Source: Candidatus Omnitrophota bacterium
GTDB taxonomy: Bacteria; Omnitrophota; Gorgyraeia; JAUYCX01
Assembly: GCA_030692045.1 (NCBI GenBank)
Contig: JAUYCX010000041.1
Location: 58,370 to 122,369, forward strand
DNA: 64,000 nt
Direction: 5' to 3'
The notes under the pieces were generated by a model. It worked only from the letters and a program-made list of their open reading frames with translations. It was not told the DNA's origin and ran no database searches. A program made the position numbers and the translations under genes. Below, one piece after another: positions 6,554 through 64,000 of the stretch (position 1 is the stretch's first letter; every line of letters starts with the position of its first letter).

Positions 6554-6557
6554 TTTC

Positions 6558-7445
6558 TTAAACTTGTTTTAACTTCTTAGATAATCTAATCTGGACAAAG
6601 GAAACTACGAGCAAGATTAAACCAAAGATTATTCCCTGAGCGCAAGCATAACCATAGCGCGAAGAATATCTCATAGAAGCCAGTATTCTTGTAACTGGCA
6701 CTTCAGTGTGATATCCTGGCCCTCCTCCTGTCATAGAAAGTATCAACACAAATGCCTGCATTGAACCTAAAATCGTCAGTATCACAACCAGCACAAACAC
6801 AGGTATCATCAAGGGAATTGTAATATGTTTAAACACATGAAAAGCATTTGCGCCATCTACTCGCGCTGCCTCGTAAAGTTGGCGGGGAATTGTCTGTAAA
6901 CCTGCAAGCATAATAATAAATCCCCAGCCAAAACCCTTCCAAGAATGAATTATTGCAACAGCCGTTAAAGCGGTCTTTGGGTCATTGAGCCAGTCTCTGA
7001 CTAAATTTGTAAATCCAATTGAGGTAAGCCAATGATTAAGCAGTCCATAATTTCCGTCGTAAATCCAGCGCCAGATTAAACCTACAACTACCTCTGAGAG
7101 AACTGGCGGCAGATAAAATACAACTCGATAAAATTTGCCTGCTTTAATATCCCTGTCACAAGCCAGGGCTAAACATAAAGCCAGGGCATTCTGAAAGGTA
7201 AGCGCAATTAGGGTAATGTAACCTGCATTCCAGAAAGCGCCCCACCAAACCTTATCCTGGAGAATTATCTCCTTGAAATTGGAAAGACCCACAAACTGCA
7301 TTGTGGGCAAGATACCATCCCAATCAAAAAGGCCTAAGGTAAAAACTTTGTAAAAAGGATAGATATAAAATATGGAAAAGATAGCAACAGCCGGCAGGAC
7401 AAACAAATAATTTCCTAAGGTATAGTTTAACTTGTGAAGTCTCAT
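6558..7445 (-). CDS. Carbohydrate ABC transporter permease, MalF type
   Basis: A permease of 295 residues with six predicted membrane helices and an EAA loop (LYEAARVDGANAFHVFKHIT then IPLMIP). It has the short N-terminus typical of UgpA/LacF-like CUT1 permeases rather than the long periplasmic loop of E. coli MalF. It is separated from the binding-protein gene by a 177-nt gap containing a large imperfect hairpin, and is followed at 4 nt by the MalG-type gene. It should form the heterodimeric channel with that protein. Confidence 0.92.
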   Translation of the reverse strand: MRLHKLNYTLGNYLFVLPAVAIFSIFYIYPFYKVFTLGLFDWDGILPTMQFVGLSNFKEIILQDKVWWGAFWNAGYITLIALTFQNALALCLALACDRDIKAGKFYRVVFYLPPVLSEVVVGLIWRWIYDGNYGLLNHWLTSIGFTNLVRDWLNDPKTALTAVAIIHSWKGFGWGFIIMLAGLQTIPRQLYEAARVDGANAFHVFKHITIPLMIPVFVLVVILTILGSMQAFVLILSMTGGGPGYHTEVPVTRILASMRYSSRYGYACAQGIIFGLILLVVSFVQIRLSKKLKQV

Positions 7446-21403: not shown

Positions 21404-22260
21404 TCACCTCCCTTCATAATTCAATTCACCCTCAACCCAAACAAACCATTCATCAAATTCCGTAGAATAGAGCTGACCAGACAACGGGTCTGTAACGCGC
21501 AGCTTAAAGCTGTCTCTAATTTCCATTCTCAAAATTTTTCCCTCAGGGCTATGTAAGTAATAAATGCGCTGATTTTGTTTCTGGATTAGCCAGCTTTTAC
21601 CGTCTTTACCCTCAACCTTTTCTACTTCTGCGTCGGGGGCAAAATAAATAGTGCCTACAGGTTCATTCAGCGCCCAGTCACTGCTTTGCGGTTTTTTTAG
21701 CACAACGCGCTGGGCAATTCCTAAAATGTCTTTGGGATTGGTTGTTACTTTGGGTGGCTGGCAATCTTTCATATCCTTAAGATGAAACTCTGCTGAACCA
21801 GCTTTAAGCATCTTCCAATGTAGGTAAAGCATATGCGGCTTTTTAGTGGATGCGTTTCGATAATATTTAATTCCCTTTCGACGAGCATGCTGTTTGAGCC
21901 AATTACACAGAGCTGTGGCTATACCGTGTTTTTGATATTCTGGTAAGATATGCAATTCAATAAACCACAATTCTCCACTACTTATAACCCATTCAAAGCC
22001 AGTTATTTCACCTGGTGGCGGGTCATCAATGCGTAGATCACTAAACCATATCTCAAAATGCCCTCCATAAGGTACTGAATCACTACGAATGATTTCAAGT
22101 TGCCCTTCTGCTGATTTCTTAACCGTTGCCCAGACCAACTTACCATTTTTATCCAACCGCTCTATAGTGCCATCTGGATAAATTACGATACTGCTCCAAT
22201 GTCTGCGCCTCTTTGCTAAGCGGCAAAGCTGCTGTTCTGTTTTGTGATTATTTTTTGTGC
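21404..22260 (-). other. Giant ORF module 35: C-terminal GNAT acetyltransferase
   Basis: Residues about 13914-14198, the end of the giant protein. FIELHILPEYQKHGIATALC then NWLKQHARRKGIKYYRNAS is GNAT motif A (QxxGxA acetyl-CoA loop) with the following helix. GGHFEIWFSDLRIDD precedes it. A beta-rich tail of about 110 residues after it (VRLKV-, YFAPD-, YSTEFDEW-type strands) is unrecognised. GNAT enzymes move acetyl from acetyl-CoA to amines; the substrate is unknown. Confidence 0.7.
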
Positions 22261-25200: not shown

Positions 25201-28200
25201 GTGCGCTGGCAGGGTCTTCTGCATCAGAATCTAATGTCATTGCAAATGGAAAGGAAATAAAAGGAATAATAAGAAAAACAAAAGAAAAGAAGTAAGACAA
25301 GATTACGAAAAAGCCTTGCGATGCCTCTAACGGTGGTGCATGTGCCCAGGACAAAAGATTTTCTATAAACTCAAATAAAAATCCACCTAAACCAAAAAAT
25401 GCTATGCAGCAATTCAAGTTATTAACATCAAGGTCTGAACGAGCCATAGGACCTTGCACATATTGCTTTACAAGCTCTTTAAATTTTTCATCAATTTTTA
25501 ATCTACTGAGGCCTTTCTCCTGCCTTTGCTCATACTCTGTATGCTCTTCCTGCCAACGTAACAAAATACTCAACTCGTCAAAAACCTTTACTTGACTATC
25601 AGAAATTCTAAGTTCTTCTAATTCAGCTTCTAAGTCTTCCTCCTCTAATCTTTTTAAAATTGCTCTTTTGTTTAAAATATATTTGCAACTGCCTTTATAA
25701 TCCCATCCCTGTGGCGCCATATATTCGTTCACAAAACTCTTTGAAAATAAGCTATAAAACTTATCATCTTCTTGATTGAGTTCTGAGCGAGGTTTTTTAC
25801 TGCGTAATTTAAATTTTACTATTGCGACAATCTGTTCATCATTAAGCGGATTGTCTCTAAAATCTGCCAAATGCTTTGAAATAAATTCTTGTATTCTTTT
25901 ATTCAATTCTCCCAAGTACCAACTTGACTTAAGATTAGACCTTATGTGCCCACTTAGAGCCAGTCCTTTTTCTGCATCAGGATTAACCCTTTTGTATTCT
26001 TTCTCTAAATACTCTAACATCCTAGAGGTTGTAACTTTAGTATACAAAGGTATTCCTGTTATACTTTCGTAGAAGTATGTCAGTATCTCTAATAACTCAG
26101 GCCTATCTTCTGGAACATGTTTATGGAATGTGGCACACACGTGATAGACGCTAGGACCCCTCTTTCTATCCCATACATCAACTGTGCCAAAATGAATTTC
26201 TGCATCAGCACAAAAAGAACGTAATACAAATTGGGCAGTAACAGAGGTTGCTCCCATAGCCACTGCCTCATCAATAACAAAGACCTTTCTTTTTCTTAAA
26301 ATTCTTCCCCATCTTGTGTGTTTAAGCAATGCGTTTAGTAAGGGACGGCTTAAATGTTTAGCTTTGTCTTTATCTTCGCCCTGACAGAGATTAGACATTG
26401 CCTCTGCGCAACTTTTGAATAGCTCAATGTAAATCTTGCCAAAGGCAAATTCTCTATCTGGACTGTGTCTTGCTACATCAATCCTTAGGGCTAATTCATT
26501 ATTTATTCTTTTTAGCTGTTCGATGTGACTGTCCTCAACAACCCAACCATTTTCCCTTATTTCATCGCGAATCCTATAAATCTCGTATCTTTCATCAAGG
26601 ACTATCTCAGCAATATACATTAAGACCTTATGAAAAGGTCTTGATTTTAAGCTATTAAAACTCGTTATTGTCTCATCATCATCTTCCTTAGCCTTTAAAC
26701 GTATATACGCATTGACCCTCTCCTGCTCCTTGGGATGCAAATCTGTGAATGCCTTATATAATTCATCCCATAATTGCCCTTCAACATACTGTCTTTTTTC
26801 TCTCCAACTCAACATTGAGATTATCATCCCAGCCAATTCCCCTGACTGCCTGTAGCTATGGATATTGCAGGTTTTGAAATTTGCAGGTAACCTTATACCA
26901 TTCTCATTCAGATAGTTTATTAAATTTTCCCAAGAGTGAACTAACAATAAACTACCCCGCTCCAGAAATAAAGGTAGCATTTCATCTTCTTTAAATCTTT
27001 TCAAATAGGCAATCAAAGGCAGTAAATAAAGAAACATCTCTTCAGCCAATATTAAATCCTCTTGCCCCATAGGCCTTTTCAGGGACCCCAGAAAATTAAG
27101 TTGAAAATAGAACTTCAGACTTCTAAATAATGTTATGCTACGCAGGGTCTCTTTTTCTTCGCTTAAAGCCTCTTCATGCTCACGGGATTTGTAGCCAGCA
27201 GCAAAATCGTAAACTCTTATACCAACCTCTTTAGTTTCTTCTTTATCTTTTACTTGTAGAAAATAGAATCTACGCGTATTCCATCTTTTCTCCTGAGTAT
27301 CTATCTCCTCTAATGTCTTGTTAAGACCTCTTCGCCAACCCTTTATAATTATTGAACCTTTATCTAAGGTAGTTGTGTCTCTTGTCAAACGAGTAAGCTC
27401 TTCTTCTATATCTTTACCCAAATTACCTTCGGAAAGGTCTTCTAACAAAATCAAAACCTTTCCTTGCTCAATAAATCTTTTAAGTCCCTGAAGCCTGGGT
27501 TGGGAATGAATAAATTTAAGGATACTGCTAAGCTCAAGGCCAACTAAGCCTTTATCAAAGACAACCACAATTCTCCAAGAATTATTAGCCTTATCATTCT
27601 CATACTCTATTGCTTGCCTTAAAATATATAATAAATCTATTGCCATTTCTCCCACAGTTCCTGCAAAAAGTACCATTGGCCTTTTCCATTCAAATACTTT
27701 TTTACAAAAAAGTTCACCTGTATCGAAACTTAGCTTTGTTTGGGATAAATTCCTTAATTTTTTCATAAAAGTTTGTAATTTTTCATTAGCTACATCTTCT
27801 GCCTGAGAATTCAATGAATTAGATAGTGCTAAAACCTTCTCCCAATCATAAGCTGTAAATCTGGCTATATCTATGCCTTCAAATGCATCTAATACATTTT
27901 TATTTGCCCTCAAAACTCTATCTTCCCAATCAGATACTTTTGCACTGGCACCCAATAAGGCAACTGGCAAGAAAAAGAAAAAGGAAAGAAAAACAAAAAC
28001 TGCGGATAAGGGGTGGGAAAGGATTTCTAAGAATCCAAAAGGCGGTGCGCGGGTTAAATCCGTCATGCCTTGCATGGCCTGCGCGGCAAACACATCTTGC
28101 GCCAGCAAAATTCCCAGAAGCGGCAGTAAAATTAAAGCAAAATATTTAGGGAGGTTTCTGGATTTGTGCTTAAGTATGTCCCTGTGGGACACATCTGGCT

Positions 28201-31200
28201 TTGAATCCAGAAATGTCCCTATCCCCTTCTCAAAAATAGATTTTTCTTTTGCGCGAGGAAAAAGTTTAATAACCATTAAAAGTAAAACGCCCATACCAAC
28301 AAAACCAGGCATAAAGGGCAAAATCATAGCATACTGTAGAAAAGCAAGAAAACTATTCCACGCTCCATGCGCCACAATGGCCGTTATTAGTTTATTCGTG
28401 CGGACGTAAAGTGAAGTAATTACGATGCTCGTCATAAATTGAATCAAAAATCTGGCCAAAGGAATATCGGTCGGTTCAGTCAAAACATGAATCCAGGCAA
28501 CAATAATGCCGGAGATAATAAGACTCTTTCCTACACCAATTTTTAATTTTTTGACCAGTAAATTTCTAAAGATAAACCACGAATGGAGTATTTCTTCAGC
28601 GATCGGCGCAAAAACACAAGAACTCAACAACACAATCGGTGCAATAAAAGAATGCGGTACCAAATTTAATTCAGTTAAAAGACACAAGCTACCGACGATT
28701 GCTGCCGTAATCATGAAAAGGAAAAACTGTATATTTTCGTTCCATTTTTGCTTGGGTGGGATTTTGTCAGACCTGCTGTTTTGCTCATCGACAACAGATA
28801 ATCTTTCGTTTCTCTCTTCTGCCTTGACAAAAAATGGATATTCTTCGGGATGTTTTTCAACAGCTAAGACTGGAACAACCTGGATTTCCACCTTCATATT
28901 GGTTATTCCTTTATCCCAGAAATTCGTCAAAGACTGTCTATACCAAATTTCATCTGGAACCAAGATATAAACCATCTGGACTTCTTCTAATTTTCCTGAG
29001 GAGTGCCATATCTTTTCTTTTATAAAAGTTTTCATATTGAAGATGGCTTGGGGACCTACAATCTTAACAATGCTTTCTGCGGGAGCAATGCCGTTACCTT
29101 CATACCAATGGTAATAATCCCGAACACCTCTTAAAAGTTCCCAAGAATTCTCTTGAGGCAACCATCTTAAAATATGTGGACCCTTGGCACCCTGCAGAAA
29201 CACCTGAATGCCTTGCTCCTTTTTAAAATATATAAACAAGGGCTGGGTCAATCCTTGATGTCTTGTATTTTCAACATCTCCATATCCCACAGCCGTAGAT
29301 TCATCAGGATTTTTCAATGGTAAAATCTCGTATGCATCATTTCTGGTGGGTAAATAATCTTTAGCCAGTGACAGTGACCAATCAGCTGTTGCGTATTCTG
29401 CCCTAAATAGATACCCTGGCCGCCTAACAGGAGAATCAGTAAATGACCAAGGAGTAAAATCATAAATTTTCCCTTCTAATCTTTTGAATTGATTTAAAAT
29501 CTCAGGAATGCTTTCGAGTGTGGCTGTTTCTATATTGACGACACCATCATCTCTAGTTTGTTCATCTTTACTCTTTGTTATCCCTCTTGTTTCAAAATAA
29601 CGCCAGAGCAAATACGCAACAATGATAGCAACAACCAGAATTCCCGATGTCCATCCTAAAACAGGTATCACCATCATCGACTGGTTATAAAGTTTACTGG
29701 GAGACTGCCTGGCGCCATTTTGAATAGAAGGTATGCTTGTGCCTTGCCTAAAACCAATTTTATAACCCTTTTTAATTGCCAGGCCAAAGGTAGCGCGGCC
29801 AAATCCTCTCTCAGGATTAAAAACCAAAACAGACCAGCTGCGAAATCCTAAGCCCCATTCTTGAAGACGCGGCTGATTTGTTAAGCAAGCCCAAAACGAG
29901 TTGTATCTAAGCTCTAAAGAATTTTTCCTCTGGTTTATTCCCCTGGCTGTTTCCAGGCTAAAATCATTTAATTCAACTTGCGTAACTACTAATCCGGTAT
30001 TTTCCTGCTCGAACAAATAGTTAAATAATCCTCCAGTGGTTAAGGCAACAGGACCTAACTGAGTTTTTCTTTTAAGCCAGAAGCTATGGCCGTATTCTTC
30101 TTTCCAGGCCCAGGAACCCTCTGTATTTGCACGCGCTAATGAAAGACGCGTTCCCCAACTATTAAAGTCTGCAAATGTGCCAACGACATTCGGTTCAAGT
30201 CTTATTGAGCCAAAGTTCAATCTCGCCCCAGCATTTCCTGAGAAGACCTCGCTGTTGACGCGCTTAAAGCTCTGTGTTCTAAAGAATGTGCCAACATGGG
30301 AGTTAATGCGAAGTTGAGACTCAAAATTGCGAACAAGTTCATCTTCTCCTCTTCTGTAAATAGCGGCGCCACAGGAAATCCTGGAATCCCTTTCAGAATT
30401 CCTCCAATTAAGACGAATTCCACGCTGACTAACAGCGCCAGCATCATTTGCGTGGGCCAAAGAAATCAATTCCACATCGCTTGCGACGGATAAAGGCTTT
30501 TTCTTGCCAATAGTTCTTTGGGTATTGATAATGCGCTTTGTGCCAAAAGAAACACTGTTTGCATGATTCTGTATGCCAATTGTGGGTTTGGGAGATATGG
30601 AAATGGCATGCTGAGTATCCGAAGGAACCGCTAAAGGCATAAATTCTTCTCTTAAAATTTCCCGCTTTCTCTCATCAAATACCTTTTGCTTTAAATAATT
30701 TTCCTCCTCTTCATTTAAGTCGATGCTTCTTAAGGTATCTGGCAAAGGAAAATCAAATTGAGGTAGGGTTAATGTCGAATCTGAGGGAGGTTGTGGCAAA
30801 TCCACAGGCGGCAAAGGACTGGCAAGGCTTTGAGTAGCGCCCATTAAGAAAAATAGCATAAGAAATTTTAATGCTGTTCTGCGGCCTTGTTTTATCCTCT
30901 CAATTAATTGAACTGCCTCGTCAAAAAGCTGTGCATAAACTCCTGCATTAAACCATTGACTGAACCTCACAAAAAGAGTAATAGTTTTATGCTCTAAAGA
31001 AACAGAAACTACTCCTTTTGCCGACAGGAATCGTCTAACCAGAACAACCTTCAATTGCCAATCTTTTAAATCCCGTCCATTTTGTTTTTGCCAATTTTCC
31101 CAGAGCTTAAGATAAAAGCAAACCGGCCTATCATAATAGGTTCTATTTGTTCCGGGTAAACATAATTGTGTTTCCCATTGCTCAAGATATTTTCTGGATA

Positions 31201-34200
31201 AGAATTTTGTCCAGGATAAACGAAATTTATTTAGGAATGGAAGAGAAACAAAAGCCAACACAAATAAGGCAGGATAAATAAGAAAAGATAAGATTCCTAA
31301 AAAGCCAAAAGGCGGCGCGCGAGTTAAATCCGACATACCCCCCATTGCCTCCACGGCCCAGGCGGTTTGAGAGGTGAAAAATAATCCTAAAATACTTAAA
31401 AGCCCAACCAGCCCAAAGGCGCCGAGGTCGCCTTCTGACAACGACGTTCTTCTTGAAAGATCAAAAGCCTGCGCTTCATCATCGGTAATCTTGCCGCGCC
31501 GGCGTAACCATTCAAAAATGTGAATCACGTTAGCGTTAGGAATATGGGAAAGTTCCTGCGAAAGTTCAACGGCTTCCTCATAGGTTATACGATCACAAAT
31601 CTGACGCAGCAATCTAGCGCTTTTAAGCGTATCCTTAATCTTGATAATTCTTTCGAGTTCTTCAACGGGAATTCCTCTGATTAAAGAACAAACCTCTTCT
31701 TCGGTAGGTTCTCTATTTTGCTCAATCATTTTTCCCAAAATTTCACTTCCGGGCACTAACGATAATTCGTAATTAGCAGGAGGTATGCCCCTCGCAGCGA
31801 TACCCTGTCGCTTTAATTCTTCGACCACTCCTGTTTTTGTATGAATAATTCCGCGCACAACAATAATAACATAGTCGGGATTAGCCGTTAAAATATCTAT
31901 GATTTGTTGCATATATTCCTGGTCTCGTTCGACCATAAGAGTCCTAAATTTAGAAATCTGCTCAGTTGTTAATGCTGTAAACTCATTTCGATTTCCTAGA
32001 TAATATGCCTGCGGAACAAGAGTCATGAGCATCTCGAGTTGTGTAAATCCAATCCATATATTGGCAGAAGTCTCTTCAATGACAGCCTGCGTTTGCTGTT
32101 CAATCAAATATTCGGTAAGGGTATGATCGAACTCTCCATAAATAGGTGGAATATTACCGCTCCTTAAAGTTGTTCGATAACTATCGTTAAACCATGTTGT
32201 AAGTTCGCGATATCGTGTGGCGAGAAGGGAAATTGTCGCTGGGTCTTCAGAAAAAAAGTCTTCTAAATCCATATCCGGATATCTCTGAATAAATACTAAT
32301 GGCGGAATACCGCCTTGCTCAACCATGAAGAGAATTCTCTTTTCTTTATTTTTAGCTTCTGATAGGACTTGATTTAACGTTGTACGGATAAATTCAAAAT
32401 CTTCGCGGGTGTTGTGGGCAGAAAGCACAAACACAACCTCTCCTCCCCAGATGGAAAGGGGCAGACGGGAAACTATAAAAAAGTACATCATAGCCAAGAA
32501 CTGGCGGCTGCTAATACCGATTTTATCCGCGAGCTCTTTACTAGATATCGGTCCGGTAAGCAGTTTTTTTACTCCCCCATAGACATCATCAGAGAATATT
32601 TGTTTGGATTCCTCTAATTCAAATACTTGTAAAAGTTTATTTTTGGCCTGCGGGTCGGTTTCGAAGCGGCGGATCTGATCACTCAAAGCTCGATTAGAAA
32701 CGCTTCTTTTGATGCTAAGAAGGATGTTTTTAAATTCAGCCATAGTGTTAATTCTCTGCGTTTGCGATGACGCGGACGGATTGCCTTCGTCTCTGGAACT
32801 GTTTTCGTCTATCGCCATCCCCAAAATCGGCCCTGCCAGAAATATTCCCAATAATATTTGAACAAAAGACATTACTGACGACTGAATGTGAAGCAACAGC
32901 GGCGAATTCGCCATAATCCCCCCCGCCCAGGCGTTGTTAAAGCCCAGCAATAATCCCAAAACACTTAAAAGTACAACCGACACCAAGGCGCTTAAGGGTT
33001 TTTCGACATCGCCGCCTTCATCCATTTTCCTTACAGCAGGGTGCGTGCCCCCGGAATTCCCAATAGCCTTTAAGCCAGATCCTCTTTGTCTGCCAGAAGC
33101 GGCACCTCCGCGTTTCTTTTGATCTTTCTTTTTACGCTTCGCTACCTCTTGAGCGAACTTTATCAGCGTTCTCTCCTCTCCCTCGAACTGCCCTATGTCC
33201 GGCTCGCCGTTGTCAATTGCCTCTATCCATTGAATCAATAGATCTCGCTCTTTTTCACTGATGCTCATGGCGTCGGCTATCTTTATCCAATCTATTTTGT
33301 ACAAATCTCCATCAGGCCATGGATCCTGTGCGGCTAATGCCCCAACCCTATCTTCCGCTATCTCCTGCGGTCTGAGCCAAATCTTTTTGCGCTCAAAATA
33401 CCTGGCTATGTTTAAGGCCTTTTGAACATAATTGCTAAACCCGCCATGGCGCGCCGGACGGTAATTGAATATTCTCCGGATAATAATATTCTTTAGGGCC
33501 TGTTGAGAATCTTCACTCAGGAAAATCAGTTGAATCAGCGAGATGGCTTCCCCATTGGGCCTTTTAGCCTCCTCAATCAGAGGCTGCCAATCTTCGGCAG
33601 AGATTTCTCGCACATTGCGGCCAAGAATATGTTGATAAGGTTCTACGGCTTGCGCATCCAACATTGGCTGTAACCATCCCTGAATAATGCTTTTGGCAAC
33701 GGCATTGTCTATGGCCTCCTCATAGGTTTTCCCGCGCCCAAGGATGGGCAGATTGTTCTTCACGCCCTTCTTCAACCTCTCCAACAGTCCTACAATCACC
33801 ACCTCTTTCTTAAAGCCTAACACCAGGACATCACGGCTGAGTTTCTCTTCCCATTGAATCGTTGCTCGAGGCCGTGCGTTTTTGGCTAAACCCTTAATCT
33901 GAATCTGTTTATTGGTTTGAGGGTTGACATAGATTCTCCCGGATGGTGTTGTTGGGATGGTTTCACCAAAGTTTTCCTTCTTTTTATCAAAAAATTCTTT
34001 GTCTTCAATGTACAACCGCATGATATCCGTTAATAATATTTTGGCTATGGCCTTCTCATATGTCTTCCCGCGCCCAAGAATGGGCAGATTATTCATACCC
34101 TTCTTCAACCTCTCCAGCAGTCCTACAATCACCACCTCTTCCTTAAAGCCTAACACCAGAACATCACGGCTGAGTTTCTCTTCCCATTGAATCGTTGCTC

Positions 34201-37200
34201 GAGGCCGTGCGTTTTTGGCTAAACCCTTAATCTGAACACGTTTATTGATTTGAGGTCTGACATAGATTCTCCCGAATGGTGTGGTTGGGATGGTTTCAGC
34301 AAAGCTGCCTTTCTTTTGATCAAACGCTAACCTCTCTTCCACGTAAAGGCGCAGGATGTCGGCTAGGGCATCATAGGCTTGTTGGTATCCATTTATTAAC
34401 CGCGGCCTTCCGCGCCTTCTTGGTGAACCTCCAGTTTCCGGAAACACGCGCCTATTTGTTTCTTCTGGTTTTTTGTCTCTGGATTCGCCTTTGTTAATTG
34501 CCATTCCCAACGCAGCGAATGAAATGAGCGCAGTCCCGAGCGAAGCGAGGGAAACCGGTATGGAAATAGCCGAAAGAATTGAAAGAAGCAGAGAAATTGG
34601 ATTGGCAGAATTAACCTGCGCCGTCGCAGCCCAAGCGATTTGCGCCATCAAAATCCCCAGAAGCGGCAGGAAAATCAACGACAAGAAAACACCGAAATTA
34701 AGAGCTTTCTCTGGAATTTGATTTCCATGAAATATCTTAGAAGCCTTTCTTGCTGCCATAAATCCTAAGAAAATCCCTAATAAGATGGCAAAAAATATAG
34801 CCCATAAACCATGCTCCCAGGCTCCTAAAGGTAATAACATAAAGCTACCAAAATCTCCCCTTTCTTTGGAGGTTTGACTTCTTAACTCATCCCAAATTTC
34901 TTCTGTTAAGTCTTCGTCTAAATCCCAAGTTTCATTGGCAATCGCAATAAAATATTCTTTTGCACCTTTGCCCTTTGGCCTATTTCTAAATTCCCATACC
35001 AGAGCGCCAGCTACCTCCTGGGCATTTTCAATACAAGCCCTGTCTGTTTTGTCTAAATTACCATTTTCAATAATTAAATTGGTTATCTTTTTAATCAGAG
35101 CTATTTTAGTCTTATCATCGCCCGAGGGCTTGCTTTCTTGCAATAGAATCTCTTTTGTTTCTTTCTCTATTCTTGAGCATGATTTTCTCCTCTTTGGCCT
35201 TTCTTTTCTCTGCTCAATCCTGTGATTTAATTTTACAATATGCGTATTTACACAAACCCTTTCTACAAGTCTGCCGTGAAAAGCCATGCCGTCATCTGTT
35301 TCTAAGAAATCATGAATTAGTAAGGCCTTAGGTTTATGCTTAAGCAGAACCGCGTGTAAACCATAAAACATTCCTTCAGCATCTGAATTGGTTAAAATAG
35401 CCAACCTGTTTAAGGCACCTTTTCTCTTTATCTCTAAAGCAGACTTGTTTTGAGCTAAAACTATCTCTGGAAAAATAAGCTCTGGTAAAACCTTAAATCC
35501 CATAAGCTTAACCTCAACTATACCTTTATCATCTTCAACTATGCGTCCATCTTTTACTACAATTTCAACTGGATGGCCGGGATAGCCAGAGAAGTGTACC
35601 CTTGCATTGTAGAAATTTAGCCGGCCTCTTTCATTTAAATGAGCGCGAATAATACAATCGCCCAAACGCCTGAATTTTCTTTGAGTGATATCAAAGAATG
35701 AATTTATCAGCCTTCTTCCTGATGGCTCATAAACCAAGTAGGGTTTAATCCAGTTCTTTTTATCCGGCAATTTTACAGCAATGACAATGCCATTTTTGAT
35801 ACGTATATCCACAAATGCTTGTGAGTATCTTTTATCTCTGAATGATGTCCAGTACCTATTTCCTAAACTTAAAACACCTCCCTTACTTAATTGATGGTGC
35901 AGAATTGTATGGTTAGATAACCCTGCAAGCCTTTCTTTAGTAAGAGTTAGGTAAGAACCCTCTAATTTTTTTAATTTATTATCGAAGATTAAGGCTAAGG
36001 GATAAAGCTTAGACACCTTTCCTCTAAATAAAACCCTAACTTCAGTAACTATTCCTTTCATGACATCAAATTCAACCAGAGCCCGGGAGTGCTTTTTTAA
36101 TTCGCACCAGACCACGCCGCCTATTTCCAAGGCGCCACTTTTTTGTAGTCTCCAGTTTCTTATTGTGACATCGTCTAACTGGCTAAAAGTCCTTGAACCT
36201 GGATTTATAAACACACCGATTAACCTATTTTGTTTCTTCTCAAATAGCAAAGGGAGCTCTCTCTTAATTCTTGTGCCTGTAACCTTAACGCTTCTGGGAA
36301 TCCCCATTACCACCAAAACCTCAACTGGAGCATAAGACTTGGCTTCATCAAGGGTTACCAGATATTCCCCTGCCAAATATAATTGTTTCTCTTTGTTAAG
36401 GTGTGTTCTAACTGTTACATCTTCAAACCTTAAAAGCTCCTTTGCAAAAACACCGTGGCAATATGTTTTAATCAGTTTTTTGGTTTTATTATCAATCACT
36501 TGGATATACTGTGCGTAACTGTCATCATCTAAGAATTTGACACTCAAAATAAAACCATGCTTTAGCTCAATTTCTACATAGGAATTCTTGTGCTTTGCAA
36601 ATATACCCCGTAGATTGTTTTTTCCTGTCCTGGGGATTTCACCCTCTTGGTTTAATCTTATGCCTTTAATTATCACATGGCCTAAAGCCCCCAATTCTTC
36701 CTGATTCATCATCTGGGATGAGTTTCGATAATGGATAACTTTTGGCTTCCTTTCAAAAGTTACAGCTAATAATGTCAGAGGTAGAAATGATAACTCGCTC
36801 AACGAAAACAACAAACTTGGAAGCATGAAAAGAAGTAGTAAAGCCAGAAACATTTTCCCGAACTTTAATTTTGAAGCAAACCTGTAACGAGAACCCTGTT
36901 TTTTCTTGCTCTGATAAGGAATTTGCGCTTTCTGTAAGTGATAACGGATGGCATTAGAGCTCGTATGGAAATGCCAGGCAATGTCACGCAAACTGGCATC
37001 AGGATTTGCCTTAACGTATTCTGCTAAGGCAGTGTCACCAAGGAGGTTGCGACGACCGCCTTGACGGGAGGACTGCGCCTGATGCTTACCTTTGCCTTGT
37101 GCATCATTGCTTGCCAAACCTAAAACTACTAAAGAAATCAAAGACAATACAAAACTGCTAAAGAAATCAAAACCTAACATCGAGAATGATGCTGTATCAG

Positions 37201-49200: not shown

Positions 49201-52200
49201 CCGTCTCTTTATTAATAACCGTCCTCTGTGTAGCAAATACAAAGACTAACGAACTATCAGCTTTGCGTTTCAAAAAAAGCAAATCTGCAGCATCCATTTC
49301 CGAAGCAAGAGACATCTCTAATAGGCCCCTTAGCAAATCTACAGGATGCGGGGCATCTGTCACACCAGGCAAATCTTTAAAAATTTCATCAAGAAAATCG
49401 CCAAGAGGATTCCTATCAGATTCCTTAGTTGCGACGGCAAATACCTTCTCCAATCTGGGATAGATATGCGGAAAGGCATCTTTGGTGGCTTGGTCTGCTT
49501 CTGGGTGGGATAATCCCTTGACTTCTTCTAAGTATTCGTGGAAGGCAACTGCTTCGAGGGCGAGACCAAGGTTATTGGAGAAATGGGATTTGAATTTCTC
49601 AACTAGGGCTGATGACGAGAAATAAATTTCTAAAACGCCGTTGTTGAATCTTGCCCAAATGAAGCCTTCTGGGGGCGCTCGAGGAATATTTTCTGTAAAG
49701 ACTCGCCAGCGGATTTTCTTGCCTTTTATTTCAGATAAGATGCTATCAAGTTCCTCGAGCGCCCCCCATTTTCCCACATCAGCCAAAATATTGGCATCTT
49801 TTCTGTGCTGTTCATCCAGATTGCCAAGATAGCCGTGAGGTTCAATATCTTCCTTGCGGCTGGGGGTGGAAGTGTCATCTTCTGCCGCGGCGGCGGGTCG
49901 CCGATTGCTATCAAATGAATCGGCGGGCCCTGCGATAGGCTCAGCGTTTGGTTTCTGAATCCGGTATAGTTTAAATAAAGAGCGGTCATCATACTGGAGT
50001 TCCTGAAATTCCCTCACGATAGTCAGATCCCATCCTCTTTGCGCATAGTAATCTCTAAAATGTCTCTCAAAGATTTCACACTCAAATCCATATTCCATAT
50101 TAATCAAAGCATCTCCATGCAGGATAAATCCATTGTGCGCTACTACTCTCAACACTGCATCAAATAATCTTTGTTTATCAGGAGCAAGCGAAGAAACATT
50201 AGTCATTATAATACCCTTGGCTAATCCATCGGCTAATGGTGCATTCTCTATCAAGCTATCAATATAAGAAATAGATCCTAAGGAATTGGTGCCAGGAACA
50301 GCCATGACTTTTCCTTTGGCACGTTCGATCCTTTCTCTGAGCCATTCATTTTGATTGAATACTTCACGATACTCGTAAGGCTGCACGACAATAACCTCAA
50401 TCCCAAGGCCTGCGACCATAAGAGGCACATAATGGAACTGTGCTGCTCCAACAATAACCACTGTACTATCCCTTCCCAGGGACATTAAATCTACAGCATC
50501 AACTGTTATTCTCCGCATTGCTGAACTATCAGCTCCCCTATACCAACCCAAATTCTCACATAGCTCTCTGGCGCTACCCAATCTAACCGCAGAGCTGTTT
50601 TCTACCATAGCCTCTTGACTCTCTGCGGCGGCAGGCGGTTGCTCAGCCGCAGGAAAGATCTTTTCTAATTTAGGATAGATGATCGGATAGGCTTTTTTGG
50701 TGGCTTGGTCTGCTTCTAGATGGGATAATTTTTCAACTTCTTCAAGATATTCATGGAAGGCGACTGCTTTAAGTGCAGTTTCGAGGTCTCTGGTTTCGGG
50801 GAATCCTGATTTAAATTTGTTGCAGAGTTCTTGTGACGAGAAATAAATTTCTAAAACGCCGTTATTGAATCTTGCCCAAACAAAGCCTTCTGGGGGCGCT
50901 CGAGGAATATCTTTTGTAAAGACTCTCCACTGGATTTTCTTTCCCTTTATCTCAGATAGAATGCCATTTAGTTCCTCGAGCGCCCCCCATTTGCCCCCAT
51001 CAGCCAAAATATTGGCATCTTGTTTATGCTGTTCATCGAGATTACCAAGATATCCTTGAGGCTCCTGTCTTTCCTTTGGTTTTTCTCGCTTATCTCTCGA
51101 CCGTTTCTCCTGATAGAGTTTCCAGCGGTCAATCCTGACATCAGAAGAAGCCTTAAATCGCAACTTAGCAGAGTTGTCCACAATGCGCGTGAGCGTTACG
51201 GTTGACAGTTGACGCCAGTGTGTGGGGTCTGGCTTGCCCACATCAAATAAAAACACGCGTTCTTCTCGTCTCAGGTAAATACCCAATCCTACTGTTGGCC
51301 TGTTACCAGACCGAGCCGTATGTCTGTCCTGTAGAAATTCACGAATGATTTCCTGTCCAGCGGCTGTTACCAGACCACCGGCTTGCTGGACATCGTGCCA
51401 GATTTTATTCCAAAGTTGCTCTCGGAAAATCAGCACAGTTTTTGGCGCCAGAAAATGCAGATGGGCTGCATTATTTCCCTTAATCCTCGTGACCAAAACC
51501 TGGACAATTTCATCATCTGGATGAAAGCCCCAGATGACCGCGCTAACTTCTTGTGCCTGCTCATAGGAAGGGCGTTCCTTGAGAGTAAGGTACGTCTTGT
51601 GAGTTAATCTCAAAGCTGTCTTTAAAGAATTAGCTATTCGTAAAATCCCTTTGCCCAAGAATTTAATAAGTGGCTCAATGGGCGTGCAAAAAAGCGTAAC
51701 AGCGCCTGTTCTAGTTTCTTCAACCGAAACTAACGCTATTTGTTGTTTAAGACCAGTGAATAATTTATCAAATGAGGTTTGCGAATACTTCGTCACAACT
51801 TGAATAGCCTTTCCGTCTTGACTTTGAGTGCCAATACTGAGTATCAAAATTTTCTTTTGTTTGGGCTCTAATTTTAGCACAATAAATACTTTCTCAATGC
51901 CTTGGACTTTACGCCTTGCGCTAAAGAAATATTCTTTTTCAAGATTAGCTATATATATATCTGAAAAGGGAGGAGTTTGTGTGATGGAGTTTAAGAATCT
52001 AATTATGCTTTGTGAATAATCAGCGTATTTTCTTAAGTCTTGGCCGCTAACTAACATCTTAAACCTAAAGACTTGATAGCCATTAACAACCAGCGGTCTC
52101 TTAAGAGTTGGTTTTTGTTCTACGGGCTTAGTTTTTGGCATACTTTCTTCTGTTAGAGGTTGTCCGGTTATAGAACTTATTAAGGATTCAATTTCTGTTA

Positions 52201-55200
52201 AAACTTCTTGAACTTGCGCCAGCGCATCCTTTTGCATGGCGTTGAGTCTGGTTTTGGTTAGAAGTATCTGCTTTGTTCTCTTCAGCTCGTCCATTTTCTG
52301 GTGAAGATATTTTAAGGCTGGGGTTTTATCTATACTGGAATCATTAATTGAACTTCTTATTTGCTTAAGCCTTTGCCTTATTCTGGGTAAATCTTTCAGA
52401 ATAGCCGGTGCAACTGCCATAGCCAAGAAAATTTCTGGGTGGTCTTGAGAGGTATTTAAAATTAATATGATTACAAAGATTAAAAAGTAGATTACAGTGA
52501 TTATTTTTCGTTGAGAAATTAGGGCGATTGCGGCAGTCTTTGCCCTCCCACCAGCCACGGATGAGGTAAAAGCAAAGATTAATGAAACTTTCTGCCGCAA
52601 TCGCCCGATAAATCTTAATAACTTTCTTGCTTTAGGCAGCCCCCTCATTAAAGTCGTCAATAACATAGTTATAAAACCACTCAGGCCTAAAAATCCCAAA
52701 GACTTAATGTGTCTCATGACAACGATATTTTTTATCTCTCTAAAATTATCTGTCTTAAGCTCAATAATATAAACCCCGCTGGCAATAGGTTGTTGATTAT
52801 TATTGCGGCCGTCCCAAACTATTTTGTGTGTGCCAGCCGGCAGAGCTTTATCTTCTAAAAGATTTCTAATTAATCTTCCTTTAACATCATAAATACGCAA
52901 GGTTACAGGCTGTTGCTTATTGAGCTCAAAAGGAATTGTTACTGAAGAACTGGCTGGATTAGGATAGGGGTCTTCTAATTGATTTGTAAACACAGGCAAT
53001 TGGTCTGGTATTTGGGGAACTACACGAAAAGAAGCTATAGCGCCGATATCTGTAATGGAATTGTCTTCGTCTAATGGTCGGAAAATAGGGTCGCCATTAT
53101 TTATTAATGGCTCTAAAGGATAAAAATTAGGTTGCCGAGTAGGTAAGTCGCCAATTGGGTCAACAAATAATTCTCTGGCATCTGGCCAAGTGCCATCAGC
53201 ACGAATGCGGCTGTAATTTTCTGTTGCTGCATCAATTGTAATGTTTCCATCTAACCTGCCAGCAATCAAAGAATAATAAATATCCATGGGAGAAAGTTGA
53301 AGACCATTATCAATAATAATCCTGCCTTGTGGAGAGGAGGCAATGACAGTATTGGTTATCTTAACCTGTGCACCTTCTGCCTCATTTTCTGGTCTTAGAA
53401 CTACAATTACTGGTAATACCACAGAATCAGTCTTAACAATTGTGAGATGGTCCAAAGTTACTTTTGTGGCGTGAGGTATGGTATGATAAATCACAATTCC
53501 CTGCAGCTGATTAATATTAATCATACCGTAAGAAACCTCTACTTCTGAATTGACTATTCTTAAAAGTGTAAGCAGAGGTTGGCCAAACGGAGGCCTTGTG
53601 TATAATCTGTGTAAATATAATCCCTTAAGATGCACTCCCTGAGAATTCTCAATGGAAATACACTCTGCTATGTATGGTGGCTGCCGAGGGTCTTCAATAA
53701 AAACTCTTTCTCCTTTAAAAGCAACATTCTCAATTGTTACATCTTCAACTGCCCTAATTACAATTGCTGGGCCAGGTCTATTTCCCACAAGGATTAATAA
53801 ATTAACAAACCCTGTGTGTGACTTTGGAATTAACGTCGTCTCTTGAATTCTAATAGTTACAGGATTACCTGAAATATTGGGCTCATTAATTCCTCTTAAG
53901 GTAACACCTTGTTTTAAGGTACCATTAACCAAATCATACACGCCATTTGAACCCTCATCTTCATTATGAAAGAGAGCAATCACATCGCCATCTGTTGCAT
54001 TTGCCATAGCAGAGTTGAATTCTGTTTGATGGCGCACCTCAAAGTCTGCTTGTTGTTGAGTCTGGCTTGCAACATTGGCAAAGCCATAAAATTGTTGCTC
54101 TCTTGCATATAGTGTTTCAGAAATAAAAACTGCATTGCCCATAACACCCAAGACTAAGGCAAACAAAAATATTCGCCGGAATAGATTTTTGATTGCATTT
54201 CGATATTTAATGATGAAATAAACTCCCAATACAATCCCTGCTAAAACTAAATTTATCCCTGCAGGCAACATTAATAAAGCCGGATTGCCTTGTTCTCCAT
54301 TAGGTGATTTACCATCAATATTTTTAGCTGCAAATTTAGGTGTAATCCTATCAAGTATTCTTAAGAAGATTTCTCTGCCATCCTCTACATTTAAAATAAA
54401 TTTATTCAAAAGTGATGTTGCTAAACCAACTACATCCCCTGCCGGTTTAGGAAATCTAAATTCTTTATCTATTACATTGGCAAGTCCTTCTATTGCAGAT
54501 TGATGAAGCTGCTTTTCCTCTGCTAATGTGTTATTGGCTAAGAAATTAACATTAACCTTTGCCAAAGCCAAAACTGCTACAGAATAAATTCTTCTTTCAG
54601 GGCTATGCAAGGCAGAAATAACCAAGCTTACAACTTCGACTTCAGTTGGAAAATGGGATAATTTCTCAATGATTGTGGCCATCTTGTCTATTCTTTGCTC
54701 CGGGGTTAAGTCTTTATCAGCTATGGCAAGCCTTAAATCGCTCTCTGGAATTTGAGAAGTGTCTATCTTGCCCATAGATAATAATCTGTATTGCTTAATG
54801 AGAAGCCGCATTAGGTTTTTATTCCTATTATTTTCTGGAATTGCCATTCCAAGAATGAAAAATAGCTGGGACAGCTTTACGATTGCCATCAAAGACGTCC
54901 CTGCCTCAAGGCTGTTAGGCGAACCGTTGCCAGTCAGCGAGAATTCTATAACTTGGCTAAAGCCCATACCGGCGAACAGGACAATGGGCATAAGCAGCCC
55001 ACAAATCATCTGTTTGGGATGGGCCTGTGTCCAGAGCCAGCGCCGTATCTTAAGCTTGATGTACCCAGGGAGATGATTGCGAAACCAACTCAAAGGGTTG
55101 TAGCGTGCCCCAACTGGCGCCAGCGCATTCCAAATTTCCCAAGCCAAGTCCAAGGGACTTCGCACTAATCGAGCAGCTTCGTCCAATCGTGCCCGATCAT

Positions 55201-58200
55201 ACTCCAATAGTTTTAACCGAATAACCTCATCTCTGAACCGAGCTACGAACTCTGCGGCAGTATAGATGGTTTCAGGATGGTCGTCAGATTGTTTGTAACG
55301 CATTACACCCTGCGGCCCCACCACCAGCAGGCGGTCGCGAATCCCTAAGACACTTCCACTTTCATACACTGGCTTGGGCAAGCTGTTATTCACCAGCCAT
55401 AACAGTGGTATGTTCAGAATAATGCTCAGACGGTGCAAGATGTGTGGGTCAAGATAGTCCAACGGGTTGATGGCAGTGTCTGGTCCGAACATTGCTTGGA
55501 GATAAGGGTCATTTTCCAATGTGTAGAGGAAATTCCCTTGTTCATCCACTTGACTTAAATGCTCTTCAATGATGCGCACCACTTGCAGATAATTCTCGTC
55601 CAGGTCTCGAAGCGGCACGGCAAAGTTTGCCCCGCCGCCAATGTACAACGCCCCGTTGGTGCCTCGGACCATTAGTTTCGCGCGCCTGCGGATGAGCCGG
55701 TAGATTCGCTCAAGAGCGGGATTCTTTAAGAAACTCTTAAGCAGTACAACGTTATTCTCTGCGCTATGCAAGAATGCCTCGCGCCAAGCCTTGAGCTCGC
55801 TCCAATTGACGCCGAACGCCTCCAGCCAAGGACGAAATCGGGTTTCCCAACCGATAAGTGATACAAGCGCTTGAGGATTTTCCATCTGCGCAGCCAAAAA
55901 CATATATTCATCCTGGCCAATCAATGGAGTGATTCTGAAGCGCTTGTGCAGCTGGCTTGGGACCTTGCGTGCGGTAAGAGGATCCATGCCAAAGACTTCA
56001 CAAAAGACACTAAAGAAATCGCTAATCTGCTTGTTGGCTTTCACCAGCGGCAACCAGTCACCATTGAGATAGAATGGGATGGACTCTTGGCGAGCAGGAA
56101 TATTGGCCTCAATGTCACAAAGGCGCGGCATCCAGCTGTGCACATCGCCGTTCAAATTGGAAATGGAAACCTCAGTTCTTAAATCACCACGGTCAATGTA
56201 GCGAAGCTTTGCCTCATAGGCAGCCAGATGACCACGACGCTGCTGGCTAAACCGCACTTGTCCAAGCTCGGTTACATCCAGGGCGTTAAGCCGACGCACA
56301 AATTCCCGCATCCCTGGCTTATCAAACACCAAGCGCACATAGGGAGTGTCAACCAAAGTCCAGCGCGCTGTGGGGTGTGCCGTACGAATCACAATATGCT
56401 CTGCAACAGACCAAGCTGCCCTGGCCACGAATTGGAACGCAGGATTACTGTGCAGCTTTGATTCGCGCAGAAAAACCACCACCAACCCCCCAGGACTAAG
56501 GATGTCTGCAAGCGCCTTTGTAACTGTGCGGGTATTCTCCAAGGGACGACCTGGTTCGATTAGCTGAGATGGGTCGTAGTAGATAACCAGGTCCACGCCA
56601 TCAACCAACATCGGCTGATACATCGGGTCTTCCAAGTGGCGCAGATCGCCTTGGATTAAGACAACCTTCTCTGACATTCCAAACAGTTTGAGAACCTGGC
56701 GTCCATGCTCTACGTTCTCAGCATCAAGATCAAACCCTATAATCCCAAACCACAGGTCTTTGCGCTTGAGACGAGCTTTCACCACTTCAGTAGCTAGCAC
56801 AATATGCGGGATGGCTCGCAAGCGCTCAAATGCCGCCAGTAGAATTAAGAAGTGCTGTTTGTCTGGCTGGGCTTTGACTACGTAGAGCAAATCATCCACT
56901 CGTTGCCTCATTGTCCGTACATCAAAATACACCCGATCAGCCAGATAACGCAAAGGAGACTCTGGACGGAACATCCGACCCTGAAACCGCTTTTGCAAAT
57001 AGGGATAAAAATAGTCCACGTAGAACTCTAATAAACCTACCTCCTTAAACAGCGCAAGCTCGCGGCGGCCAAGCGGACGCTTGAGTCCCTGCTTTGCCTC
57101 AGCCTGGTCCTCAACGAGAATAGCTCGCCAAGCGCAGGCAAACTGCTGGGCGTGCTCAACGTTCATCCATAGGGGAACGTAAATTCCTTCATTGCGCATC
57201 AGATGGCTATGGAACAAAAGATTTGTCAGAAGCGGTTGTTCAGTGATGAGGCCGTTGAGTATCTCAACTTCCTGGTCACAAAGCCCTTTATTTGCCTGAC
57301 GCACTACCTGAAGCGCAAGCTGCCGCTTTTCCTCATCAAATGGCTCTACATCAGCCAACCTCACCTTGATATACTCAGAGGCCTGCACGCGCTCAAGATA
57401 GGTAAGGTACTCAACTAATTCCTGACTGACCTGTGCCAGACCTTGGAAGGTTCGGCTCCAATGAGTGCGATGAACAATTGCCAAAAACAAACGTTTAAGC
57501 TCCCTTGGTTGTTTGCTGTACAAGATAGAATCAATTGCTTGACGCTGTGGAGCGCGCGGGAATCTCGCAGGAGAAAGTTTAAAAATCTTGCGCTCGTGTT
57601 GCAGCCACTGCGTCAACCACTCCACAGAGCCAACAGATGCGCCCTTATCTGCACTACTTGCTATCCCAAAAATTCCCATTGCTACTGGAATTAAATCAGC
57701 GGTGACAAGGAATAATCCGGCAACAATACTGATTGTAATCAAGGCGATAAATATTGCTAATCTTGTGTGTATGTGGCCTATGTTTCTTGGCTTATCGATT
57801 GGATTGATACCAGTTTTATTTTCCTTGTATAAATGCCTTAGCAAAACAGGAAGTGTTTCATTCCATTCTTTCTTAAACCAATCGCGTTGCTCAATAGGAA
57901 TATTAACCTCTTGCAGGGCTTCATTAAAAGTCAATCCGCTATCTATCAATTCTCCAACTTCTATAAGCCATCCAATCTGATAAGGCTCGTAGTGAGTATT
58001 CAGGATTTGGATAATTTTATCGTGAAGTTCTCGGACTGCGGCTTTAACTTCCGGATTATCAGAAGCCTTGATATTTTGATAGCGATAACCTTGCGGGTCA
58101 ACAGGACGATACAAGACAACCGTACGCCATCCCATCCGTCTGCGGTATTCACAATTTCTTAACCATTCCCGGGCTGTTTGTAAATCAGGTGCGCGTGCCC

Positions 58201-61200
58201 GATTGCGAGCTGAGGTTACTAATTGGTATCCTCTATTGATACCTTGAATTTCTCTATAATTTGTTACATCAAAACCTATGACCTCTTCTTCCCTTGCAAA
58301 ATATAATCTAAGCCCAATTCCCTGCTCCCAGTAGGGATAAATTCTGTAAGATTGATTAGGGGTTAAGTTACTAAAAGTGATTGTTCTATATCGTAATGGC
58401 GTTAAGGAATACCATCCTCTAACAGAAGAAGCAGTGGCCGTGTATCCTTTTGCCCTGAAGGCAGCTAACCTTGACTCCAAGGCAACCAAAGCCAATGGGT
58501 CTGGCTTATTTTGACTTAAGCTTAAAGAATCTAAAATTATTCTACATAATTGTTCCTTACGATTACTTAACGCCATCTCAAGATTTGGCGCGCGAACTCG
58601 CACATGAGCATAAAAATATGGCGCTGATGTGACTTGAGGGGTTTCTGAATAGGTTTCGCTTTCAATTTCATAACCAATGATTTCTGTTTTTCCCACGAAA
58701 TAAAGACGTAATCCAAACTCCGGCTCCCAATATGGCTGAAGCACATAATTAGTTTTAGGTTTTAAATGTGGGAAGACCAAAATCCTTTTTTCGGATAATG
58801 TGATGGAATAGTGTCCGCTTAAATCACTCTCAACTACAAAACCTTGTTCTCTGAACGCAATCAATTGAGATTCCAATGATTTAAGGGAAACCTCATCGGG
58901 ATTCTTTTGATTCAAAGCTAAAACATTATTGAGTAAAACAACCAACTGTTCCCTGCGTTTAGCCCTTGCCGATTGAAGGTCAAAAGCGCGTATTTGAAGA
59001 TGCGCAAAAGTTCTTTTCAATTCTTTAAACAGGGGCTTAACTCCTTTATATGAATCTACGTCACATCCAATCACCTCATGAGGTGCAATAAAATAAAGAC
59101 GAAGCCCAAATCCGGTTTCCCAATAAGGCTCAAGTTCATAAGTTTGATTAGGAGTTAGATGTTCAAAGCAAATCTGTTGGTTTTTAACGGGAGTGATGCT
59201 ATACCAGCCAACTCGATTAGCAATTACTTTAAACCCCCTTGATCGAAGGATTGAAAGTCCGGTATTAAGCTTAGTTAATTCTGCCGGATTTGGATTATTG
59301 GAATCTAAAGATAAGGCATCTAATATGAGGTTATTTAATCTTTGTCTTTGAAGGTTTCTCGCACTTTCAAGATCTGCCGCGCGAACTTCAATATGAGCAG
59401 AGATTGTCCGTTTCTGTTTTTCTCGAGGTAGAATATTGTTGTAGGCTTTCACAGCGTAACCAACGACTTCCTTGTCGCTGATAAAATAAATCCTAAGGCC
59501 GCGGTCTTGTTCCCAATAGATTTGAATGGAGTAAGATTCTTGGGGAGTCAAACCCATGAATGACAGCCAAAATCTCTTGAAGAGTTTAATCAAAAAGTGG
59601 CCTCTATGAAAAACCTTAATTTTAAACCAGAACCAGCGTACCCTAAAACCAGCCAGTTTTGATTCCAATGCTTCGACTGATTTCAAGTCAGGATTTTGGG
59701 AATCCAATTTTAAAGCATCCAGAATAATAGCTCCTAATTCCTTTTTCATCCTCTTTTCTTCTAATTTTACATTAGAGGTTACTATTCCCAATACCATCAC
59801 CAATACAGCACTGATATCTAAAACTACTGTAACAAAGAATAATCCAACAACAATACTGATTGTAATCAAGGCGATAAATATTGCTAATCTTGTGTGTATC
59901 TTGCCGTTGTTTCTTGGCTGGCTGTCTGGAGATTCGTTTTCTTCAAGCATTTGTTGGGCTTCTCTGTACACACGGTTAAACTCATCCACAATCTCTTGGA
60001 ATAACTTTCTACTTTCAGCAGAGAGCCTTTCTTGTTGTTCGATAATCCAGCTCCAGGTTTTAGCGCCTACATCAAAAAGGTTGTTTGACATTCTGGTTGC
60101 AATCTCGCTAAACCAAACCTCTAACATCTCATCTGAAAGATGTTCCACTAATCTAAATAGTTTTGGATCTAAGGCGCCCTGTATATAAATATTTTTCATA
60201 AGCTCGGCTAAAGCAACTGCCATAAGTTCTTCAATAAGTAATCTTCTTCCTTTAGCAGTTTCCTGCGATGGCATTTCTTCTTGTGCATAGCGGCAACTGG
60301 TTAATATAGTAACATTATTATCAAGCCTAAAAACGCTTTGCTGTCTCAAGCCCCTATCATAAAGTGCATCAGTAAGAAAAGTAAGCTCTCCATGCATACC
60401 CCCGCGTAACACAAAATGCACTGTCTCAGGAGAATTTCGATGATAATTGGTAATCTCATTTGCAGATGCTACATCGCGTATACGTATTGAATCACTATCA
60501 TAAAGGTAAAATAAATTTAACATCTTAATCGCATCTTGGGGTAAACCTTGCTCTAATAAATCAAAGGCTTTTCTGCGCGCTGCCATACTTCTTAAGAAAA
60601 CAAGAAGCGCTTCAAAAATTGGCTCTTCCCATTTTAAACCCACATTCCATTCTTGGCCTCGTAATGCTACAATACTATCTCGTATGGCTACTTGGTTTAA
60701 AGGAGGCTCTGCTATAAATTCTCTTTCTATTTCTCTAGAGGCTCCTCTTTCTATATTACATTCCCTAAAGATAGCCTCTAAAATACTCTTTGGTTGCTCA
60801 TCCATAGGCTGCTTTAATAATTCATCCTGCCAATTAAGATTAATATTTATTTCACCTTCCTCATTTAATCGAGCGAAAAATTCCTCTAACTCTGCTATTG
60901 TTAGTGGCATTCCGGGAGGAACACCTTCCTCCAGCCATATCGCTACTGGACGCTTTGATTCTAATTCTTTTAACATTTCCTGCATTTGTTTAGCTGACCA
61001 AACAAAATCATCAGCGCTACCATGTGCAGAGAAAATCAAGCGTGCTGACTCTCTTAATGGCTCAATAAGGGGTTTTAATCTCTGACGCAATTGGGCAATA
61101 TTACTGGCACCAATGCCTCGAATCTGAGTAAGTTCGTTCAAATCTGTAAACTGACCTTTCTCTTGACGCCACTCAATAATCCCTTTTGTGGCTCCGTCTG

Positions 61201-64000: not shown

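Follow-up and report, generated by a model that had tools for sequence, protein, structure and literature searches.

Giant open reading frames (ORFs) with many transmembrane (TM) helices are already in print for the Omnitrophota (Seymour et al., 2023; PMC10066038); the first-pass annotation of the present DNA had mentioned giant genes in this phylum. Ca. Velamenicoccus archaeovorus encodes a 39,678-amino-acid (aa) protein with 42 predicted TM helices and a proposed role in the envelope; a surface or predation role has been proposed for this organism, and an attached or predatory life for the phylum (PMC10066038). Omnitrophota giants are known but unexplained, because few domains have been recognised in them and little of them has been aligned.

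The window, which is the whole stretch of 64,000 nt analysed here, carries a gene of this known kind, an Omnitrophota giant ORF. Its host belongs to the phylum, its length is well over 20 kb (42.6 kb in the window and 59.0 kb together with the overlapping contig, C97), it has multiple TM segments, and few domains are recognised in its poorly conserved chain. The link to Omnitrophota drawn in the first-pass annotation is confirmed by RpoB, which is 72–76% identical (best segment) to that of the nearest relatives, all of them Omnitrophota MAGs, and 48–60% identical to that of other phyla.

Extent and coding character of the giant frame

The frame occupies the minus strand and has no internal stop across 14,198 aa, in a window without any N; the longest stop-free run in the three plus-strand frames of the window is 192 codons. 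At its right edge the window reaches the end of its contig, C76 (122,369 bp). Contig C97 (16,508 bp) ends in an exact match to the last 70 bp of C76, the overlap on which the joining rests, and a 601-bp probe from the window end has only two matches in the genome, the C76 end and C97. In register with the giant frame, C97 has no stop in 5,502 codons, and its other five frames have 229–537 stops. The first-pass claim of a single frame of at least 14,198 codons, still open at the window edge, therefore stands, and if C97 joins C76 as the overlap suggests, the joint frame comprises at least 19,677 codons. Further upstream, bases 5–478 of C97 are 93% identical to the last 474 bp of contig C10 (3,584 bp), in which one frame is open along the whole contig. 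This layout is as expected for adjacent contigs from slightly different strains, and since C10 both matches the start of C97 and is wholly open in one frame, the giant frame probably extends about 1,036 codons further. The upstream search that had been suggested for the true start thus lengthened the frame without reaching a start codon in C76, C97 or C10, so that all lengths given are minima.

Codon-usage scoring with a model built from the contig's ordinary genes selects the giant frame in 194 of 195 scored pieces of 600 nt (joint frame, both contigs), and the other frames carry stops at 3.8–9.2% of codons. A chance open frame is ruled out by the absence of stops and by this codon signal, in agreement with the earlier judgement. 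The sole piece that does not favour the giant frame begins at joint residue 801 on C97 (locus L003, approximately 2400–3000), and the surrounding stretch may be an insertion that left the frame open.

Copies within the chain, together with the C10/C97 pair, allowed dN/dS to be estimated (Nei-Gojobori). The ratio is below 1 in all six informative comparisons (range 0.11–0.59): 0.11 for the HTH copies, 0.16 for joints S3/S4, 0.34 for the C10/C97 pair, 0.38 and 0.46 for module copies, and 0.59 for the joint pair 6838/7547. Three more comparisons are not counted among the six: a self-aligned repeat, a pair whose synonymous sites are saturated, and a pair of 41% identity that aligns weakly (ratio 0.33). 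The synonymous excess has p < 0.05 (uncorrected) in five of the six, and p = 0.17 for the joint pair 6838/7547. By this measure purifying selection acts on several internal duplicates, one joint pair included. Given the codon signal and the duplicates with dN/dS below 1, the giant frame is constrained coding sequence, and the one constrained frame of the first-pass annotation is upheld.

The reading of independent genes taken as one was rejected. Internal ATGs preceded by an SD lie at background in the giant frame (9/312 versus 10/315), a test with little power because an SD precedes any of the first four ATGs in only 16/45 reference ORFs, and terminator-like sites are near the level of shuffles (21 versus 18.6, sd 3.9) in the 20-kb piece scanned, 21404–41403. 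Promoter-like sites on both strands number 59 inside the frame (shuffles 45.9, sd 6.4; an excess of about 2 sd) and 58 outside it (shuffles 51.2, sd 7.0). The window and C97 contain nothing that Rfam recognises at gathering scores.

Modules and membrane joints of the chain

The features of the window are collected in Table 1. Pfam matches over cut-offs fall at seven places in the window's 14,198 aa (HHH, Por_Secre_tail/FlgD_ig, Guanylate_kin, Lycopene_cycl, AA_kinase, Rce1-like and Acetyltransf_1), and C97 adds TPR, HTH_3, HD_4 and RelA_SpoT; where the guanylate-kinase P-loop lies, a Rad17 match also exceeds its cut-off. As had been claimed, one chain does combine metabolic-type enzymes with membrane spacers and surface-type modules. 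The further claim of about 35 modules, many of them matching complete known enzymes with intact motifs, was overstated, as only carbamate kinase is clearly full length.

Table 1. Features of the giant frame and its neighbours (window coordinates)
Feature	Position	Strand	Basis or remark
Giant coding frame	21404..64000	-	14,198 codons, open at contig end; at least 19,677 codons via C97
TPR + GH2-type protein	3291..5612	-	Conserved neighbour, 55% in G102
Two ABC permeases	5609..7445	-	Conserved neighbours, 60% and 69% in G102
Solute-binding protein, sugar-type ABC importer	7623..8933	-	Conserved neighbour, 65% in G102
GNAT acetyltransferase module near C terminus	21863..21979	-	Pfam
Membrane joint S4	27929..28147	-	Internal comparison
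Rce1/CPBP-type membrane protease module	28352..28639	-	Pfam, 48.8 bits
Outer-membrane-barrel-like stretch after signal-peptide-like segment	29678..30811	-	By eye and crude topology
Small module, 44% identical to G099 giant	30947..31258	-	Sequence comparison
Membrane joint S3, 29 aa at 69% common with S4	31220..31426	-	Internal comparison
TraB/ChaN-like module	31460..32446	-	Pfam match below cut-off
Membrane joint: two hydrophobic segments, turn with AWA	32798..33001	-	Hydropathy
HTH module copy 2, duplicate of 39038-39247	36857..37066	-	Internal comparison
Carbamate kinase module, full length	37214..38152	-	TIGR00746 3-309, 278 bits (model cut-off 358 bits)
HTH module copy 1, 74% identical to 36857-37066	39038..39247	-	Internal comparison
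FAD reductase, geranylgeranyl-reductase/lycopene-cyclase type	41789..42334	-	Pfam
Guanylate-kinase-like module	42755..43105	-	Pfam 3-109 of 182 positions; P-loop kept
Conserved module without name + membrane joint	43751..45157	-	About 30% identical to G116 giant
Guanidino-modifying-enzyme-like stretch	48041..49033	-	By eye only
Module copy 2, duplicate of 50438-51076	49226..49855	-	Internal comparison
Module copy 1, 58% identical to 49226-49855	50438..51076	-	Internal comparison
Por_Secre_tail/FlgD_ig type domain	52718..52966	-	Pfam; preceded by beta-helix-like stretch (by eye)
Membrane joint, duplicate of 59750-59893	57656..57766	-	Hydropathy and internal comparison
Tandem repeats of about 130 aa, 37–38% identical	58172..59737	-	Internal comparison
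Membrane joint, duplicated with 57656-57766	59750..59893	-	Hydropathy and internal comparison
Helix-hairpin-helix module	61076..61198	-	PF12836, 28.6 bits

The carbamate kinase module aligns across the PDB enzymes with its conserved blocks kept, and the other TIGR00746 matches in the genome are two, both partial and weak (29 and 27 bits). Guanylate kinase is partial in the giant and has a canonical copy elsewhere, on contig C98. Homologues of the TraB/ChaN-like module occur in 8 of 98 relatives (which share the class of the present genome but neither its order nor its family) as separate frames of 337–530 aa, and the loci viewed look signal-peptide-like by eye. In the Rce1/CPBP-type module, one residue of what we take to be the family motif looks replaced (by eye). 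For the guanidino-modifying-enzyme-like stretch no homologue was found, and its structure model is too poor for use. The module at 43931–45133 (minus strand) lacks a Pfam match and is well conserved; it occurs in two Omnitrophota giants, the present one and that of genome G116, which have the adjoining joint in common as well, and its homologues outside the phylum are a Patescibacteria protein (40%) and a Desantisbacteria protein (partial record, 53%). A look for adhesion-type extracellular domains gave one Por/FlgD-type tail and no discoidin, laminin or dockerin match at E ≤ 0.01 over 19,677 aa. A modular synthase (PKS/NRPS) was considered and rejected, there being no carrier, condensation or ketosynthase domain at the same threshold and over the same length.

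Hydropathy, which is not a trained predictor, places 67 hydrophobic segments in 40 groups along the 19,677 aa. Several of the joints so formed are copies of each other although the flanking modules are unrelated. A motif chosen after inspection of the joints (hydrophobic-Gly-hydrophobic-small) ends 13/48 hydrophobic regions, compared with 9/102 for ordinary proteins (p = 0.006); shuffled sequences give 3.1 on average and 8 at most. Other giants seldom have it (7/91 regions), so this joint type is not general. A crude topology model leaves the sides ambiguous, its two best paths scoring 110.9 and 109.4, and would put the FAD reductase and a methyltransferase-like module on the outer side.

Giant frames and neighbourhoods in relatives

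Nine further giant frames of 2,966–16,007 codons occur in 8 of 18 Omnitrophota genomes reached via RpoB, and a tenth (3,694 codons) occupies the start of G107:C67. They were met through searches for modules and neighbours rather than by an exhaustive scan. Each frame meets at least one contig end, so that lengths are again minima; over the stretches seen, 20 kb is exceeded in G102, G107 and G116 only. Their Pfam content differs. For instance, the G102 giant holds FolD, FTCD, a response regulator, PanB, PPDK and SecA; the first G099 frame a PRPP-synthetase-like domain, CheB, CN-hydrolase and FtsK; the second G099 frame (4,910 codons) HD, RelA_SpoT and an alpha/beta hydrolase; and the G100 giant sigma-70 region 4. 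The G107 giant (16,007 codons) has SLT, M23, glucan synthase, GlgB, GH77 and PALP, and the G116 giant (10,142 codons) GT5, GNAT and ACT. In G113 (Omnitrophota MAG CG1_02_40_15), GH116, GH77, GDE, GH13 and glycogen synthase (GT5) share a single frame, 4,876 codons or longer (L147, 660–15287, minus strand), and make up much of a glycogen pathway. The Pfam scan of the relatives' frames covered all but the final 164 aa in G116, 1,910 of the 4,910 aa in the second frame of G099, single codons where stretches ended, and the whole of the 3,694-codon frame of G107 and of the giants of G101 and G108.

Five enzymes aligned to full-length PDB relatives keep their conserved blocks, namely the carbamate kinase of the present chain, PanB and SecA of G102, and CheB and FtsK of G099; the residues kept are those that we take to be catalytic. 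G102 has a canonical PanB elsewhere in its genome. In a PanB tree of 13 canonical copies and the G102 giant copy, the latter is a very long branch and 7 of the 11 inner branches are open; the tree does not indicate where the copy arose. Glycogen synthase is found in an ordinary-sized frame in 18 of 19 genomes (468–516 aa, one of 1,037), and in four of these 18 (G113, G116, G101 and G108) a giant frame holds a further, diverged copy.

The genes beside the giant are steadier than the giant itself. The ABC neighbours and the TPR/GH2 gene stand in the same order beside the G102 giant and are 55–69% identical, and only 150 of the 8,199 residues of that giant (1.8%) can be aligned to the present one; at most 618 of the 19,677 aa align to any one of nine other giants. 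At a second site, the giants of G107 and G116 both end beside mutL (MutL 52% identical over 612 aa) and have no residues in common at E ≤ 0.001. By these alignments, the flanking genes stay at two conserved neighbourhoods while the giant's content differs almost wholly. The permease was found in 12 genomes, five of which offer long upstream DNA. A giant frame lies upstream of it in G102 and G113 (in G113 directly, without an intervening solute-binding protein) and not in G116 and G107 (20 kb seen). G111 has none in 13.4 kb, where a giant could be missed because the present one lies 14.0 kb from its permease. The other seven genomes end too soon, three by the fetched stretches and four by coordinates.

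Other ORFs near the giant were also viewed. Two large ORFs downstream, at 9043–12513 and 16461–21080 (both minus strand), have signal-peptide-like starts (by eye), C-terminal domains of Hint/intein-splicing type (PF14890, PF07591) and VHN-type ends. Between them, near the sugar ABC importer, lies a GH94 phosphorylase (12629–15094, minus strand), and an RHS-repeat protein with a 3-keto-disaccharide-hydrolase domain (3–3173, minus strand) runs past the left edge of the window.

An HD + RelA/SpoT unit lies on the C97 part of the giant frame. PF04607 is reported in 3 of 19 genomes (the present one and 18 relatives), each time inside a giant frame, and is clear in two: the present genome (45–48 bits) and G099 (34.5–39.9 bits, in its 4,910-codon frame). 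The match in the 16,007-codon G107 frame is unconfirmed, scoring 26.8 bits (27.1 with neighbours) at a cut-off of 27, and was recovered neither by hmmscan of the chunk or of a 701-aa piece (E up to 1) nor by PDB comparison. No separate RelA/SpoT copy was found in the 19 genomes, some of them incomplete (the present one is 95.7% complete), by a search that was positive in 11 of 14 known genomes used as controls. The RelA/SpoT module of the present chain is weak against PDB chains. By eye, residues presumed to serve the HD function are lost and some presumed synthetase residues are kept, so the unit looks hydrolase-dead.

Interpretation and comparison with known systems

With its open frame and coding signal, its joints recurring between unrelated modules, and the different enzymes of its relatives, the locus is read here, at about even odds (probability roughly 0.5), as one constrained frame whose product is a chain threaded through the membrane and made up of enzyme and surface modules; duplicated membrane joints would be the places where modules are gained and replaced, with the frame kept open. 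Ribosomes would make a single chain from the whole frame, the joints would be membrane hairpins, and modules would turn over by recombination at the joints. The enzyme modules would be active at the inner face of the envelope, and the chain may serve the mode of life, attached or predatory, that has been suggested for members of the phylum. A bolder version, which we consider unlikely, is a lineage-wide module slot: a fixed position at which the frame is kept open and modules with their joints are captured, diverge and are replaced in each species. Some modules, the RelA/SpoT-like ones seen only in giants among them, would then target a neighbouring cell and not their maker.

Other readings were weighed, among them an error of assembly, frameshifts that the assembly has masked, or a pseudogene read through neutrally. 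The assembly is of metagenome type (119 contigs, contamination estimate 7.5%), but the window has no N, the codon signal is continuous, the duplicates are constrained and giant frames are present in eight other genomes, and we give this explanation hardly any credence. A bacterial polyprotein is a good deal more plausible, if still doubtful: envelope proteases (signal peptidase I, for example) would cleave the complete chain at its joints, leaving separately anchored enzymes. Several joints consist of two hydrophobic segments with an AxA-bearing turn, a beta-helix-like module is preceded by a stretch resembling an anchor plus a signal peptide (by eye), and the relatives of the TraB/ChaN-like module elsewhere are separate, exported-looking proteins. 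On the other hand, AxA is not clearly enriched after hydrophobic segments (16/92, some overlapping and counted more than once, versus 4/48 controls), a weak test because AxA occurs in only 2/10 of the positive-control set of N-terminal segments. Eukaryotic-virus-type polyproteins also join many functional domains and membrane segments in one frame; neither a processing protease nor its cleavage sites are established for the present chain.

It is improbable, though in keeping with the published proposal for the phylum (PMC10066038), that the product is a giant surface coat or predation weapon as for Velamenicoccus, its enzyme folds being scaffold, or wall- and sugar-cutting tools outside the cell. 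The giants of relatives do contain peptidoglycan-hydrolase-type SLT and M23 domains and alpha-glucan enzymes, the present chain has a surface-type tail, and the giant adjoins a sugar ABC importer here and in 2 of the 5 relatives with enough upstream DNA. Cytosol-type enzymes that use NTPs or cofactors (SecA, FtsK, PanB, carbamate kinase) have kept their active sites, however, which scaffold use would not preserve. The membrane-threaded chain with modules replaced at its joints is the reading that we prefer. Recognisable enzymes on hydrophobic joints, stable neighbours with changing content, and RelA/SpoT seen only in giants (among 19 genomes) offer testable handles on giant genes.

In literature searches with bioRxiv outside the scope, none of the top-listed papers paired RelA/ppGpp, domain shuffling or module swapping with Omnitrophota or giant genes in title or abstract, and content replacement at a fixed neighbourhood and RelA/SpoT confined to giant frames did not come up. 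West-Roberts et al. in 2023 reportedly described giant genes of Omnitrophota that have TM regions, SecA domains of divergent type and sugar-import neighbours; a SecA domain is seen here in the G102 giant and is absent from the 19,677 aa of the present chain, which lacks its start. The likeness to the Velamenicoccus protein, drawn by description, lies in phylum, size class, many TM helices and a proposed envelope role. More generally, the present gene and the published Omnitrophota giants are alike in length (well over 20 kb), in their many hydrophobic segments and in being poorly conserved with few annotated domains (PMC10066038). The first-pass view that the architecture is undescribed was only partly right, as giant multi-TM ORFs had been published (PMC10066038) and mixed enzymes occur in the scanned relatives too. 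What appears new is that relatives' giants carry different housekeeping-type enzymes, with catalytic residues apparently kept in SecA, FtsK, PanB and CheB. The published account, in the parts considered here, stresses adhesion domains and unknown content (PMC10066038), whereas here enzymes of housekeeping type are found in the giants, catalytic residues being kept in some of them, and giants at matching positions differ almost wholly in content.
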